A DNA stretch of 64,000 bases from a bacterium (GTDB lineage Bacteria; Vulcanimicrobiota; Xenobia; Xenobiales; JADMJV01). The notes beneath the pieces were generated by a model. It searched no databases, was not told the DNA's origin, and saw nothing but the letters and a program-made list of their open reading frames with translations. A program made the translations under genes and the position numbers. The stretch spans positions 175,609-239,608 of the forward strand of contig JAFEBA010000010.1 in NCBI GenBank assembly GCA_018266105.1, given 5' to 3'. Positions 18,578 through 44,064 of the stretch are shown here, one piece after another. How positions within the stretch are numbered: the first letter of the stretch is position 1; every line of letters begins with the position of its first letter.

Positions 18578-20410
18578 TTAGCGACGCCAGAGCAACTGGC
18601 CATCCTGGCCGTAGACGCTCATATTGTCGATGTTGCCGTCGGTGCGGATGACCGTGCCGCCGGTACCACGTTGGTAGAGTACGTTTCCGTCGGAACCCAT
18701 GATGGTGATGTTCTCGGCACCCGCGTTGATACGCGCGTTCTGGGTGGAGAACCAGTGCGAGCCACCATTCATCGTGACATTGTCGTTGCCAGCGGTGACG
18801 TTGTAGACCATGTTTCCGCTGCCGTTGCCGTTCATCACGATGGTGTCATTGCCCGCGCCGCCGGTGACGTTCATATTGGTGGAGCCACCACCAGCATTGA
18901 CGGTCACGCGGTTATTGCCGGCGCCGTTGAGCACCACATTCTGATTGGTGGTGGAGAACATGCCGCCGCCACCATTTAAAGTGACGGTGTTGTTCCCACC
19001 GGTGGCCGTAACCGTCTGGTTGCCGTCACCGAAGGTGGAGCCATTCTGGACCACCCGGTTATTGCCCACGCCGACGTTGACGGTCTGATTGTTCCCTCCG
19101 ATGATGCCGCCGTTCTGCTGGATATCGTTGTTGCCGTGGCCGGCATTGACCACCTGGGTGCTGTTGCCGCCAGCGTTCTGAGTCACCAGATTGTCACCGC
19201 TGCCCAGGTTGGTTACCTGAGTGGAGTTGCGGGCAGCGTCCTGGGTCACCACGTTATCGCCGTGGCGAGCGTTGGTGATCTGAGTGGAATTGCTGCTGGC
19301 GTTCTGGTTGACGGTGTTGTTGCCGCTGCCCAGATTGGTGGTTTGCAGGGCGTTGACCGAGCCATCCTGGACCACGGTGTTGTTGCCGTGGCCGGCGCTA
19401 ACGTTCTGGTCGGCATTGCGGCCGGCTTCCTGCCGAACCACGTTGGTGCCGTTGCCGGCCACCGTGTTCTGGTTGGCGTTGGCGCCGGCTTCCTGGCGAA
19501 CCACGTTATCGCCCTGACCAAGAATGGTCGTCTGACGGTCGTTGTTCATGCCGCCCACCTGGGTGACGCGATTATCACCGTCGCCGCCGGTGGTGACCTG
19601 GCGGTTTCCATAGAGGCCGCCAATCTGAGCAATGTTGTTGTTGCCGTTGCCGGCTTCAGCCAGTTGGTCGGCCTTGCCCCATCCGCCGCGCTGACGAATC
19701 GTGTTGTCGCCGTTGCCGGTGTAAACCGTCTGCAAATTCTCGCCGAGGGTGCCGCCGTTTTGCACAATGGTGTTGTGACCGTTGCCGCCGTAAACGGTCT
19801 GGGGTCCGCCCAGCAAGCCCTGGTTCTGGCGAATGTCCTGGTTGCGCCAGTAGCTGCCATTCACCACCTGCGGGTTGTTGTTCAAATAGTCGTTCTGACG
19901 AATGACCGGGCGGGAGTCCACCGGGAAGTCGGGGCGACGCCAGGGGTAGGGCATCGGCTGCTGATAGCTGGGCATCGGGGGCATTTGAGGCCAGCTGGGC
20001 TGAGGGCAGAAGGGCATCGGGCCCTGAAACTGCTGGGGAAAGCCCATCATCGGGTTCATTGGGCCCATCTGACCGGGCATCATCATCCCGGGGTTCATCA
20101 TGCCCGGGTTCATCATGCCAGGCATTCCGCCGCCCATCATCATCATCATCATTTGTTGCATCATCTGCATCATGCACTGCATCTGCATCTGCATGCGCTG
20201 CTGCTGGGCTGCCATCATTCCAGCCTGAAAACCCTGGGAATACGGGTCACCACCCATGCCCGGACCATAGGGCATCTGAGGCATGCCCAGCAGGGCATTA
20301 CAGCCGCACATTCCGTAGCCGGCCTGAGCAGCCTGGGCCTGACGCATCTGCATGATAAACATCTGCTGGTCGGCCGCTGCCTGGTTAAAGTTGGTGATGT
20401 TGGTTGCCAA
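18578..20410 (-). CDS. Met-rich protein with curlin-like Asn/Gln/Gly repeats
   Basis: This 610-residue protein is strikingly biased. Residues 65-122 hold about 27 methionines in 58 positions, including a run of six and repeats of NPGMM; residues 123-165 are Pro/Met/Gln-rich. From about 196 to 570 there are about 17 tandem units of 21-26 residues with the pattern N-G-G...Q-T-V..G-x-G-N-N-x-V-x-Q. The Q-x-G-x-x-N step recalls curlin repeats of CsgA-type amyloids. A beta-solenoid or amyloid fold is inferred. No signal peptide, TM helix or sortase motif is visible. The TTG start is supported by GGGAGG (20419-20424) eight bases upstream. Composition is unlike all neighbours. Confidence 0.85.
   Translation of the reverse strand: MATNITNFNQAAADQQMFIMQMRQAQAAQAGYGMCGCNALLGMPQMPYGPGMGGDPYSQGFQAGMMAAQQQRMQMQMQCMMQMMQQMMMMMMGGGMPGMMNPGMMNPGMMMPGQMGPMNPMMGFPQQFQGPMPFCPQPSWPQMPPMPSYQQPMPYPWRRPDFPVDSRPVIRQNDYLNNNPQVVNGSYWRNQDIRQNQGLLGGPQTVYGGNGHNTIVQNGGTLGENLQTVYTGNGDNTIRQRGGWGKADQLAEAGNGNNNIAQIGGLYGNRQVTTGGDGDNRVTQVGGMNNDRQTTILGQGDNVVRQEAGANANQNTVAGNGTNVVRQEAGRNADQNVSAGHGNNTVVQDGSVNALQTTNLGSGNNTVNQNASSNSTQITNARHGDNVVTQDAARNSTQVTNLGSGDNLVTQNAGGNSTQVVNAGHGNNDIQQNGGIIGGNNQTVNVGVGNNRVVQNGSTFGDGNQTVTATGGNNTVTLNGGGGMFSTTNQNVVLNGAGNNRVTVNAGGGSTNMNVTGGAGNDTIVMNGNGSGNMVYNVTAGNDNVTMNGGSHWFSTQNARINAGAENITIMGSDGNVLYQRGTGGTVIRTDGNIDNMSVYGQDGQLLWRR
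18701..19825 (-). repeat. about 17 tandem coding repeats of 63-78 bases
   Basis: This stretch encodes the solenoid units of the protein above. Units such as 'NGGTLGENLQTVYTGNG' and 'DGSVNALQTTNLGSG' recur with 21-residue spacing in the centre and slightly longer spacing at both ends. The DNA copies are diverged at third positions, so selection appears to act on the protein pattern and this is not a recent DNA expansion. It is not a CRISPR: there is no constant repeat with unique spacers. Confidence 0.85.
20135..20152. repeat. (CAT)6 microsatellite inside the Met-rich segment
   Basis: Six uninterrupted CAT triplets on the plus strand encode the run of six methionines on the minus strand. Further CAT and TGCAT runs flank it. 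Such a triplet repeat can change length without breaking the frame. Confidence 0.9.
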
Positions 20411-20473
20411 AGGGTTCGCCTCCCGATTTTTGTGTGCAACTTAGTAAAACAAAAACACCGGAGAAATCCCACT

Positions 20474-20511
20474 GACAACTTGTCAAAGTTGTAACAAGTG
20501 CGTTACAACTT
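20474..20511. promoter_or_regulatory. palindromic operator candidates between divergent genes
   Basis: Two inverted repeats lie in the 129-base gap between the Met-rich gene and the divergent zinc-ribbon gene. GACAA-C-TTGTC spans 20474-20484, and a perfect 10-base pair AAGTTGTAAC (20486-20495) / GTTACAACTT (20502-20511) is separated by six bases. A TTGACA reads on the minus strand across the gap between them (20487 to 20482) and could be a -35 element. The arrangement suits a dimeric repressor controlling both genes; the regulator is not identified. Confidence 0.5.
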
Positions 20512-20539: not shown

Positions 20540-21880
20540 TTGTATTCTGATCCTTTACTCGTGACATGCGCCCAGGCCTACCTGGACGGCCAGGGAGGAC
20601 TACCCGAAGTGCTGGATTGCGCTGAGAGAACGCGCCAGTCGGTCGAGGAACACTCTCAGCAAATGCAGACGCGCCTGCAACAAGAAGCCCCCCACGTGCT
20701 GGCCATGATTCAGCCCGAATTGCAAGCCTGGCGCGAATCCTGCGGCGACTTTCTCCAATGGACTCGAGTGGCGAGCGAGAGCGGGGGCAGCAGTGCGCCT
20801 CTAGAATCGCTTTGCTCGGGCTTGCCGGTCTCTTCTCGGCGGCTCCAGTTTGATGGCTTTCGACTGGACCACGCGATTTGGGTCAGCCGAGGGCCCAGCA
20901 CGTTCGCTCCCATTAACCGCCTGCTGGCGGCCGCGGCCCAGGGCTTTCAACTGGACCTGCTGTGTCAGCAAGAAGCAGAGCTGCTCAACCACGGCCTGAC
21001 CTCCCTGCTGGAGGGCTACCCCTCCGAACTGCATCCCCACCTGGCACCCTGTCTGGAAAGCATCCTGGACTGGATGGATCAGCCCCCGACGGCCGAACAA
21101 TTGCCGGAGTGGACGGCCGAGGGGGAGCAACTGGGTAAGGAGTTGGCCCGCTTTGATCTGGCATTTTTGCTGAGGGGGTATTCTGGCGCTCCCACCACCT
21201 ATCCCCCCCTCAATCTGGCCTTGAACGCTTGCTGGCTCCAGCAACAAGGCTTCGTGGCACCTGAATTAACCCAGTTCCTGCTCCAGGACGCGATCCGGCA
21301 GGTCGGTGCCCTGCCCCCTCCGGACGAGGGAGAATTGCCGGAAATCTTCGAGGACATGGAATCTCTGCTGGGACAATTGCTCAAGCAATGCCAGCGCGGC
21401 GAAGACCTGACCGCCTTGCATCAGGCAACCTCTGAGGTAGCCCAGGAATTTCAAGAAGCTCTGGCTGACAAACCCGAAAGCGAGCAGGCCCGTTGCTCGG
21501 TCTGTCATCAAGCCCAGCCCTTGGGCACCCGCCGCTGCTCTCTTTGCGGAAGTACTCTCAGCGCCAGTGCCTCCGCGGACGAGGTTCCTCAAGACCGACT
21601 GGAGCGGATGCTGGCGCTGGCCGAGGCACTCATGCAGGATTCGGAGTGCTCCCAGGCCCTGGACCAGGAATTGCAAAGCTACCGTCGCGATATGCAAAGG
21701 GCCCGTCAATTCAGAGAAGAGGTTTATTCGGAAATCCTCGACCAGTTTGAGAACGGCCTGGCTGCTCTTGAGGAGCACCTCCAAGAACCCGATCGGAGCC
21801 TTTTGAACGAGGGCAGCGCCCAGTTGCGCGAAGCCGAGAGCCGTCTCAAGCGCTGGCGCGAAGAGAATCCTGGCGCTTGA
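20540..21880 (+). CDS. unknown protein with central zinc ribbon
   Basis: This encodes 446 residues with no signal peptide or membrane segment. Most of it is Gln/Glu/Leu-rich helix. At about 316-337 there is a four-cysteine knuckle pair (CSVCHQAQPLGTRRCSLCGS), a typical small zinc ribbon. After the ribbon a long amphipathic, probably coiled-coil region (about 350-440) runs to the C-terminus. I cannot name a family. The TTG start at 20540 has a GAGAG eight bases upstream; a GTG at 20561 is the alternative. It is divergent from the curlin-like gene and shares its palindromic control region, so a linked role, such as handling or controlling that protein, is possible but unproven. Confidence 0.6.
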   Translation: MYSDPLLVTCAQAYLDGQGGLPEVLDCAERTRQSVEEHSQQMQTRLQQEAPHVLAMIQPELQAWRESCGDFLQWTRVASESGGSSAPLESLCSGLPVSSRRLQFDGFRLDHAIWVSRGPSTFAPINRLLAAAAQGFQLDLLCQQEAELLNHGLTSLLEGYPSELHPHLAPCLESILDWMDQPPTAEQLPEWTAEGEQLGKELARFDLAFLLRGYSGAPTTYPPLNLALNACWLQQQGFVAPELTQFLLQDAIRQVGALPPPDEGELPEIFEDMESLLGQLLKQCQRGEDLTALHQATSEVAQEFQEALADKPESEQARCSVCHQAQPLGTRRCSLCGSTLSASASADEVPQDRLERMLALAEALMQDSECSQALDQELQSYRRDMQRARQFREEVYSEILDQFENGLAALEEHLQEPDRSLLNEGSAQLREAESRLKRWREENPGA

Positions 21881-41892: not shown

Positions 41893-42819
41893 TTACTGAG
41901 TTAGCTTCTGGTAGCCCCAGCGGCCCAAGTCAGCCATGTAGCTTCCAAGGATCAGGGCCGAGCCAACCGGGGCTCCGAAACCCGTCGCGATCATGGCTGC
42001 GCCGGCGATCTTGGCGCCGCCACTCACGGTGTCGAAGGTGTCGCCCTTTTTAAACCCTTCGTAAGCCTGTAAGGCGCCGCCCAGTGCAGGGGCTGCGCGA
42101 CCGGCCACCTTGGTGGCGACCTCTGTTCCTTTGAGTCCGGCCCCTGCCAGAGTGGTCAGGGCCGCACTGTTCCCGGCCTGCAGGGCTGCTTCCCCATAGT
42201 TCCCAGCTTTGGCGCTGTCGTAGGCCATCTTGCCGAAGGCCACGCCACCCATCACGCTGGCGGCGGGATTGAGTGGACGCAGCGCACTCGAGCCCACGCT
42301 GGCAACCTGCTGGGCTTTGAGAGCGCCGCCTGCCTTCTCGGCCACTTCAGCGGTGTGGCGGGCCTGGGCAGTAGCCCAACCTGCGTCATCAAAGTTCTTG
42401 GCCAGACCGGCCTTGGAGTTAGGAGCAGGGTGGTCACCGACTTCCTTGCCTGGCAGGGGAGGGCCGGACGGGGCGGTCGCAACCGGCTTCTCCCCGACCC
42501 TGGGCTCAGGCGGTGCAGCCGGGGCGGCGGGTGCCGGAGCGACACGCGGGGCAGGATCAGAAGGAGCCGGTTTTGCGCCGACCTGGGGAGCTTGAGGAGC
42601 GGCCATCGCCCAAGACCCGAAGTTGGGAACGTTGCCGTTTGCTTTGACCCCCAGGTCCCTGCTCAGCGATACAGAGTCTTTCGGCTTCTGAACCTGACTG
42701 GCGGGCTTGGAGGCAGGCTTGCTGGTCGCGGATTTCACCGAGGAACTGGATTTTGTCTTGGTGCTGCTGCTGGTTTTGTGACTGCCGCTGCTGCTCGTTG
42801 GTTTGGAGCTGACGTTCAT
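41893..42819 (-). CDS. low-complexity Ser/Pro/Ala protein with glycine-rich hydrophobic tail
   Basis: This encodes 308 residues of unrecognised family. Residues 1-50 are Ser/Thr/Lys-rich and disordered, followed by a 'KPKDSVSLSRDLG' motif (about 46-57). Residues 75-130 are a Pro/Ala linker ending in 'NSKAGLAKNFDDAGWATAQ'. The last 150 residues form hydrophobic Gly/Ala helices ('VMGGVAFGKMAYDSAKAG', 'GGAKIAGAAMIATGFGAP') that could insert in a membrane or oligomerise. There is no Sec signal. GGAGG precedes the ATG. It is divergent from the lipase-like gene. The layout resembles exported or effector-like proteins, but no secretion system is shown. Confidence 0.6.
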   Translation of the reverse strand: MNVSSKPTSSSGSHKTSSSTKTKSSSSVKSATSKPASKPASQVQKPKDSVSLSRDLGVKANGNVPNFGSWAMAAPQAPQVGAKPAPSDPAPRVAPAPAAPAAPPEPRVGEKPVATAPSGPPLPGKEVGDHPAPNSKAGLAKNFDDAGWATAQARHTAEVAEKAGGALKAQQVASVGSSALRPLNPAASVMGGVAFGKMAYDSAKAGNYGEAALQAGNSAALTTLAGAGLKGTEVATKVAGRAAPALGGALQAYEGFKKGDTFDTVSGGAKIAGAAMIATGFGAPVGSALILGSYMADLGRWGYQKLTQ

Positions 42820-42969
42820 CGGTTTCCTCCGCGTGGTTTGTTAGATTCAGTGTATCCTCCCCCACCCAGGGCAAATGAACGGAGAGTTAACAGGTCGTGA
42901 GCAATGTTTCCAGCTTGTTGCCACTTGTTACAGCCTTGTTACCACCTGGACGCGGCGGCCTGGTAGAAA

Positions 42970-42995: not shown

Positions 42996-43020
42996 CGCCT
43001 GGTTGGTTAAACTGGGAAGC

Positions 43021-44064
43021 ATGAAAATTGCCAGTCTTCCGCCATTAGCCAACCGGAGCCGGTCCACTTTACGCAACTCTCAGGAGGAGGAGGATCGTCG
43101 TATCGGAACCGAGCTGGTTGCCGGTGGCACGATCTATCAGGCCCACACAGAGCGAGCGCAGGCTTTTGAAAAGCTGATGACTCCGCTGGTCGACCAGCCC
43201 AATGTCAAGATGGACCGCCCTCTCTTGATTTCGCCAGGTTGGAACACGGATTTGCACAAATTCGACTATCTGGCTCGCAAGCTGCTGGCTTCGGGTGAGA
43301 ACGGTGACTATGCGGTCTACTTGAAGGAGGGAGCGGCTTACCGCGACCCTGAAGCCACTCAACCCCTGGAATTGGCCGAAATTCCCAAAAACATCAAGGT
43401 CTTCGTCAATATTTGGGATGAACTCAACAGCCCACCTTCCATCACCGCTCCCCAGCTAAAAGAGAACCTCGCCTTGCTGCAACAGGCGGTGGGACCGGAC
43501 AAAGTAGACGTGATTGCCTACAGCATGGGGGGTCTCGCCACGCGCAATTACCTCGATCAAGGGGGCCGTGGAATCCGAAACTTGATGATCTTGGGAACTC
43601 CCAATCAAGGCAGTCGCTTCGGCCAGCTGGCCGGCCAGGCCCTGGACCGGAACATCACATGGGCTCTGGATTATTGCGGCATTAAGCCCTCCGACCGTCC
43701 CGCGATGGCCTGGACGGCGGCGGATTCACCCGAGAACCTCGACCTGGCTTCGCGATGGCCGCAGCAGCGAGCCGCCGTGGAGAATCTTAGAATCGTGGGC
43801 GCCAGCGAGGAGCCTACTCCGGCTGTGGGTGACAGTCCTTATGTTCAGGGGGATGGCATTGTGGAGCCGGAGCGTCTCAGGATGCCCGAAGCGGACGTGC
43901 GCGTGCTCCATGGTCACCCCTTCTATCATCACGGCGCGCTACCCCATGCATCGGGTGTTTTTGCTGAAATGAGGGAGTTTTTCGGCTGGGACCAGGCGGC
44001 CGGAACGTTGGACCTGCCTCCCCTGCCCCCCCCTCACCTGGATACCCCTTACGGGAAGATGTAA
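43021..44064 (+). CDS. lipase-like alpha/beta hydrolase
   Basis: This encodes 347 residues. The oxyanion motif is 'RPLLISPGWNTD', the nucleophile is S168 in 'DVIAYSMGGLATRNYL', the acid is probably in 'QGDGIVEPERL', and the histidine is among 'HHGALPH'. 'LMILGTPNQGSRFGQLAG' is typical of triacylglycerol lipases and PGAP1-like esterases. No Sec signal is present; it begins 'MKIASLPPLANRSRS', resembling the start of the 1540-residue AAA+ protein (MKIGSFFPNRP). A GGGA sits close to the ATG. It is followed 43 bases later by a coiled-coil protein, probably the same transcript. The substrate is unknown. Confidence 0.8.
   Translation: MKIASLPPLANRSRSTLRNSQEEEDRRIGTELVAGGTIYQAHTERAQAFEKLMTPLVDQPNVKMDRPLLISPGWNTDLHKFDYLARKLLASGENGDYAVYLKEGAAYRDPEATQPLELAEIPKNIKVFVNIWDELNSPPSITAPQLKENLALLQQAVGPDKVDVIAYSMGGLATRNYLDQGGRGIRNLMILGTPNQGSRFGQLAGQALDRNITWALDYCGIKPSDRPAMAWTAADSPENLDLASRWPQQRAAVENLRIVGASEEPTPAVGDSPYVQGDGIVEPERLRMPEADVRVLHGHPFYHHGALPHASGVFAEMREFFGWDQAAGTLDLPPLPPPHLDTPYGKM

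Follow-up and report, generated by a model that had tools for sequence, protein, structure and literature searches.

We analyzed a window of 64,000 nucleotides of bacterial DNA in which a reverse-strand gene encodes a protein with a short N-terminal module, a methionine-rich arm, a repeat body, and a C-terminal cap domain. The gene, its parts, and its surroundings are laid out as follows (residue numbers are those of the protein).

18578 to 20410, minus strand: the whole solenoid gene, 610 aa, with a TTG start
18581 to 18850, minus strand: C-terminal cap domain (residues 521 to 610), conserved across part of the phylum, with 14 invariant columns
18851 to 19906, minus strand: predicted beta-solenoid (residues 169 to 520), with 13 clear repeats from residue 212 and the consensus [DN]N-x-[VI]-x-Q-x-[AG]-G
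19907 to 20044, minus strand: Pro/Gln/Met-rich linker (residues 123 to 168), predicted to be disordered in the full-length AlphaFold2 model
20045 to 20218, minus strand: Met-rich arm (residues 65 to 122), a low-confidence helix at residues 56 to 89 and then disorder
20324 to 20407, minus strand: ITNFNQQAxDQQM module (residues 2 to 29), a low-confidence predicted helix with sites in five congeneric genomes
20419 to 20424, minus strand: putative ribosome-binding site GGGAGG, the same in three orthologues
20473 to 20485, no strand assigned: palindrome TGACAAGTTGTCA, a probable operator
20489 to 20508, no strand assigned: palindrome TTGTAAC-N6-GTTACAA, a probable operator
20540 to 21880, plus strand: divergent neighbor of 446 aa with a zinc-ribbon-like CxxC...CxxC pattern, conserved beside the solenoid gene

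Conservation and regulation of the locus

Full-length orthologues of the solenoid protein, 72 to 77% identical, occur in three congeners named Candidatus Eremiobacterota. Purifying selection acts on the gene: dN/dS against the orthologues, counted only where dS was unsaturated, is 0.1 to 0.3 depending on the region. Given this identity and these ratios, the open reading frame at 18578 to 20410 is a real gene. Its TTG start is supported as well, since the GGGAGG that precedes it also stands ahead of the GTG starts of the three orthologues. On the opposite strand, an open frame of 452 aa at 19136 to 20494 (plus strand), rich in His, Val, and Ala, seems to arise simply from the composition of the repeats. 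Rfam revealed no structured RNA at the locus, and a search for viral or plasmid relatives returned none.

The two palindromes are adjacent, lie in the intergenic region between the solenoid gene and the divergent 446-aa gene, and are kept in four of four species. The first, TGACAAGTTGTCA, is identical upstream of the same gene in three congeners and absent from every other locus examined; the second is expected only 0.04 times per window, even allowing two mismatches. Because the palindromes are retained in four species and occur at no other gene among the loci examined, the solenoid gene is probably regulated, with positions 20473 to 20508 as probable operators. A two-mismatch copy of TTGTAAC-N6-GTTACAA (expected, 0.04) is found at 42925 to 42944, between divergent genes at 41893 to 42819 (minus strand) and 43003 to 44064 (plus strand).

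The 446-aa neighbor, for which no significant Pfam match was found, is 61 to 62% identical and adjacent at three other loci (L033, L034, and L035). A 575-aa neighbor is likewise conserved beside the orthologues, as are histidine kinase and hydrolase genes in the two orthologue loci long enough to show them. No secretion genes adjoin the solenoid gene at this locus.

Repeats, predicted fold, and the question of curlin

An earlier note on this DNA had reported 27 methionines in a stretch of 58 residues. The count is exact for the Met-rich arm, whereas 2,000 shuffles of the same composition averaged 9 and never exceeded 15. The window genome encodes a second Met-arm protein (L117:265-1839, contig G000 C90; 524 aa), which has a Met/Pro-rich arm and is encoded near a gene for a module protein. 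By eye its C-terminus is cysteine-protease-like, and it has no library match.

Repetition in the body of the protein is strong. Over residues 165 to 610, identity at lag 21 exceeds that of shuffled sequences with z = 10.8, and about 40% of residues are identical in the core. Thirteen anchored tandem units of 21 to 26 aa span residues 212 to 498 and give way to a degenerate tail; their full pattern is [DN]N-x-[VI]-x-Q-x-[AG]-G...Q...G-x-G. The earlier note had described about 17 repeats with Q-x-G-x-x-N spacing. Tandem repeats of that length are indeed present, but the count falls to 13 clear units plus the tail, and the proposed spacing occurs at chance level (2 instances in the body versus a shuffle mean of 1.2). 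Instead, the body is enriched in N-x-[VIL]-x-Q (13 instances versus a shuffle mean of 1.2 and a maximum of 6) and in the glutamine spacings Q-x12-Q and Q-x20-Q, not the Q-x10-Q of curlin.

Using an alignment of only four sequences, AlphaFold2 modeled residues 160 to 610 with a mean pLDDT of 88.2 and a pTM of 0.85. The model has about 40 strands, or roughly one per 11 residues, which amounts to two strands per 21- to 23-aa repeat, the same number as in CsgA by prediction. When the full-length protein was modeled, the solenoid recurred, preceded by low-confidence helices at residues 2 to 30 (pLDDT of about 40) and 56 to 89 and by disorder to about residue 165. These predictions support the earlier inference of a beta-solenoid, and they make the repeats a confidently modeled fold in place of a disordered region. 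Foldseek searches against the PDB and viral models yielded no match at E ≤ 0.001 (best values, 0.35 and 0.086). The PDB entries ranked highest were CsgA (8c50, E = 0.35), the S-layer protein RsaA, and RTX domains, none of them significant; low TM-scores are uninformative for long solenoids. A profile search also returned mainly designed Pizza propellers (E = 3e-4 and worse), which we ruled to be compositional matches that share N, T, and V. No sequence relatives of known structure were found for the cap domain or for the 80-aa family described below.

AlphaFold2 gives confident but unrealistic solenoids, mainly for near-perfect repeats (PMC11795689). This bias, together with the shallow alignment and the missing significant fold match, would be consistent with disordered, low-complexity repeats that the program has folded artificially. 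That the repeats are imperfect (at lag 21, about 40% of residues are identical) and hold their V/I and N/Q positions from one species to the next lowers this risk without removing it. An artifact is further opposed by the spaced N-x-[VI]-x-Q kernel, which is retained across species, by the V/I anchors, by purifying selection, and by a cap that is conserved and nonrepetitive. We therefore consider an artifact very unlikely.

The earlier note had also called the repeats close to curlin units. Curlin repeats are defined by X6-Q-X10-Q spacing and an N-x-Psi-x-Psi-x-Q kernel (PMC10192328). In the window protein, Q-x10-Q occurs once (shuffle mean, 2.9) and the kernel once (shuffle mean, 1.15). The protein has no Pfam match at E ≤ 1, and the curlin repeat family PF07012 was not found anywhere in the genome. 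CsgG (PF03783) is likewise missing from the genome, which is about 95% complete, whereas an E. coli control was positive; the note's observation that no CsgG-like gene was present thus holds well beyond the window. Membership in the curli family is refuted by this combination of Pfam results, spacing, and genome content, and what survives of the resemblance is the number of strands per repeat and the N/Q-rich rungs. Even with these two features, and with CsgA first among the PDB fold matches at an E value of 0.35, it is extremely unlikely that the protein is a genuine curli subunit bearing an atypical arm, which would also have to do without a Sec signal.

A cap-domain family across the phylum

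The window protein belongs to a cap-domain solenoid family that we define here by a match to the C-terminal cap profile together with G/N-rich rungs. Of the phylum's 148 genomes, 18 encode members, which are scattered over three families within the same order and three more families. The cap profile was built from 12 rows, the window sequence among them, and matched the window gene with an E value of 1.5e-29. Because that sequence sat in the profile, the homology of the cap rests on the 14 invariant columns and on single-sequence hits (E down to 3e-16). The earlier note had suggested a search for homologues with the same arm, and such homologues do exist in other genera and families: a Met-rich arm with 14 to 21 Met per 60 residues recurs in many cap-family relatives, including some from distant families. 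In addition to curli, the solenoid family may represent another, independent way of arriving at N/Q-laddered solenoids.

No Sec signal was recognizable by hydropathy scan in the cap-family relatives, and none of the homologues falls within a surface-layer family that has a name. In one of the families, some members (e.g., L012) begin with a glycine-zipper stretch whose hydropathy is similar to that of signal peptides. Cap-family N-termini from other genera contain 0.8 charged residues per 25, versus 5.4 for 40 genes of the window (P = 2e-7), a low charge that holds for the whole proteins and not for the N-terminus alone. Three congeners carry a shorter second paralogue of the family (L023, L025, and L026) that lacks the module and has a regular series of GGWGND rungs; it was not found in the window genome. 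A genome of the sister genus (G005) contains six cap-domain matches, with L131 and L013 among its loci. The L131 protein has a Met-rich arm and rungs that are higher in N/Q than RTX-like ones.

Most of the rung-bearing relatives have 5 to 35 GGxGND rungs in place of GxGDN. The protein could accordingly be an RTX-like substrate of type I secretion, in which the cap would hold the export signal and the repeats would descend from GGxGND rungs that once bound Ca and have ceased to do so in this genus. Conservation in these proteins is at the cap end, their N-termini being different, and L013 matches the NCBIfam family Ca_rpt_SMc04171 at E = 7e-10, although far below that family's cutoff. The genome also encodes HlyD-like adaptor proteins, but none of the 27 matches exceeds the type I family cutoff, and 13 of 14 controls are positive for the family. 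Searches for RTX nonapeptides (PF00353; GGxGxDxUx) gave no Pfam match in the window protein (E ≤ 1) or in four relatives, which have no Pfam match at an E value of 0.1. Furthermore, the repeat unit is about 11 residues rather than 9, the window protein contains a single GGxGND, and secretion genes are absent beside its gene. On balance, type I export seems quite improbable.

A module shared within the genus

When the genome was searched with the window protein, we recovered the protein itself and three loci that match its first 29 to 69 residues only, with 47 to 79% identity. The shared element is a 28-residue module with the consensus xxNITNFNQQAMDQQMxIxDMRQAQSxQ. At E ≤ 0.001 (profile hits from 1e-17 to 1e-3), each of four congeners has it in about 11 to 16 proteins and a fifth has it in 2, with no match at this threshold in the other genera searched. 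There are one to three copies per protein (three in L120), located at the N-terminus, internally (L121 and L122), or near the C-terminus (L116). The attached bodies are mostly unrelated and include an EF-hand protein (Pfam E = 1e-6), a subtilase (Pfam E = 3e-9), Gln-rich and Gly/Phe-rich proteins, and one protein with subthreshold PG-binding/LysM matches. Several paralogues of 80 to 90 aa per genome combine the module with a very conserved body (ADENDRANVAKLLTSINDITFGIQKDK; contigs G000 C76, C3, and C103, corresponding to L044, L039, and L049, and their orthologues). They are 72 to 98% identical to one of their number and have no significant library match. In another module protein (L121:2623-4293, from congener G003), two module copies are followed by a C-terminal region that by eye resembled an ADP-ribosyltransferase, a reading that we set aside for want of Pfam or PDB support. 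The module thus ties the solenoid to about ten, and at least ten, other proteins of the genus, a connection that lay beyond the view of the earlier note.

That note had reported no export signal, and a simple hydropathy scan (not SignalP) agrees that the window protein has no Sec signal. A Sec-like N-terminus was found in none of 12 module proteins scanned. For a candidate new export route, the shared N-terminal module is the best lead. One specific version is that the module is a type III (flagellar-gate) export signal. The window genome has three full FlhA-type genes, two of them inside flagellar gene sets, and cap-family N-termini are N/T/Q/I-rich and nearly uncharged, broadly in line with what has been reported of type III substrates (PMC3338616). 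However, the module is also found internally and at the C-terminus, and, unlike the phylum-wide export gate, it is confined to one genus, which makes this version unlikely. We dropped co-occurrence as an argument for type III export, because 134 of the phylum's 148 genomes have FlhA and its co-occurrence with the cap family is uninformative at that base rate.

In four genomes, a flagellar operon ends about 3.5 kb before one 80-aa module gene. We rejected an injectisome beside the 80-aa gene, since the operon at G000 C76 is flagellar by reading (FlgB, FlgC, FliE, FliF, FliG, and others). Cargo of a contractile injection system was likewise rejected; the phage-type sheath PF04984 is absent from the genome. 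In addition to the three full FlhA genes, about 14 further matches to the FHIPEP/FlhA cytoplasmic domain occur in the window genome (L163 to L169; G000 C60, C88, C103, C117, C132, C50, and C11). Of the matches inspected, each either stands alone or is joined to additional sequence, and some have zinc-finger-like parts.

Because the module can be internal or C-terminal and is present in one to three copies, a docking helix fits better than a classical type III signal. From its sequence distribution, the module would look like a docking or sorting tag. We favor, as plausible though short of probable, an extracellular or surface-exposed structural protein (a fiber, an adhesin, or a matrix component) in which a predicted capped solenoid of Asn/Gln/Gly rungs would be held on a flexible Met/Pro/Gln-rich arm. 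Such a protein would leave the cytoplasm, or dock at its site, without the Sec pathway. Its N-terminal helical module would be the shared tag through which the 11 to 16 or so proteins of each genome reach the same partner, either an export apparatus or a polymer built from the highly conserved 80-residue module proteins. We infer the extracellular location, the tag function, and the partner, while the fold itself is a prediction. The explanation is weakened by one congener (G004), because it has a solenoid homologue without the module.

Alternatively, the module helix could join module proteins and the 80-residue paralogues together in a filament or compartment of the cytoplasm, with the solenoid as a spacer or part of a shell. 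An intracellular scaffold of this kind would suit the missing Sec signal, a module that is not strictly N-terminal and may be multicopy, and paralogues as highly conserved as a housekeeping structural part. Subtilases and Ca-binding EF-hand proteins, however, are usually extracellular, and the known Asn/Gln/Gly solenoids of this kind (curli, RTX, and ice-binding proteins) are extracellular, and we regard a scaffold as somewhat unlikely.

Returning to the extracellular structural protein, we tentatively suggest that this genus has an undescribed system for sorting or assembling proteins, with the module as its recognition tag. Independently of Sec, the helix might recruit about 11 to 16 unrelated proteins to one exporter or polymer, among them a solenoid fiber that resembles curli without being related to it. 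A literature search found nothing on a secretion tag in Eremiobacterota or on Met-rich beta-solenoids. The phylum has very few cultured members. Should the module prove to be a tag for sorting or assembly, it would define a lineage-specific, Sec-independent pathway that is testable with a single 28-residue peptide. The solenoid family, whose Met-rich arm recurs in distant relatives, should be of use for research on biofilm matrices and functional amyloids.

Comparison with known systems

Docking tags such as encapsulation peptides and dockerins are, like the module, short helical elements common to otherwise unrelated proteins, although no sequence relation of the module to any library was found. 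With flagellar and type III substrates, the proteins have in common the lack of a Sec signal, charge-poor N-termini in the cap family, and export gates in the genome; they differ in that the module is genus-specific and can be internal, C-terminal, or multicopy. The RTX beta-roll (PF00353) and Ca_rpt_SMc04171 resemble the family in the GGxGND rungs of relatives from other genera and in the lack of an N-terminal Sec signal. Unlike these families, the window protein has units of about 11 residues instead of 9, lacks a Pfam match and a type I operon in the vicinity, and carries Asn where most Ca-binding Asp would be. A further comparison is with CsgA (PF07012; 8c50), which has repeats of 21 to 23 aa with two strands each, N/Q-rich rungs, and a solenoid like the one predicted here. 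In contrast to CsgA, the window protein has the kernel N-x-Psi-x-Q rather than N-x-Psi-x-Psi-x-Q, lacks Q-x10-Q and a Sec signal, and comes from a genome without CsgG. It also adds a Met-rich arm, a shared module, and a C-terminal cap.
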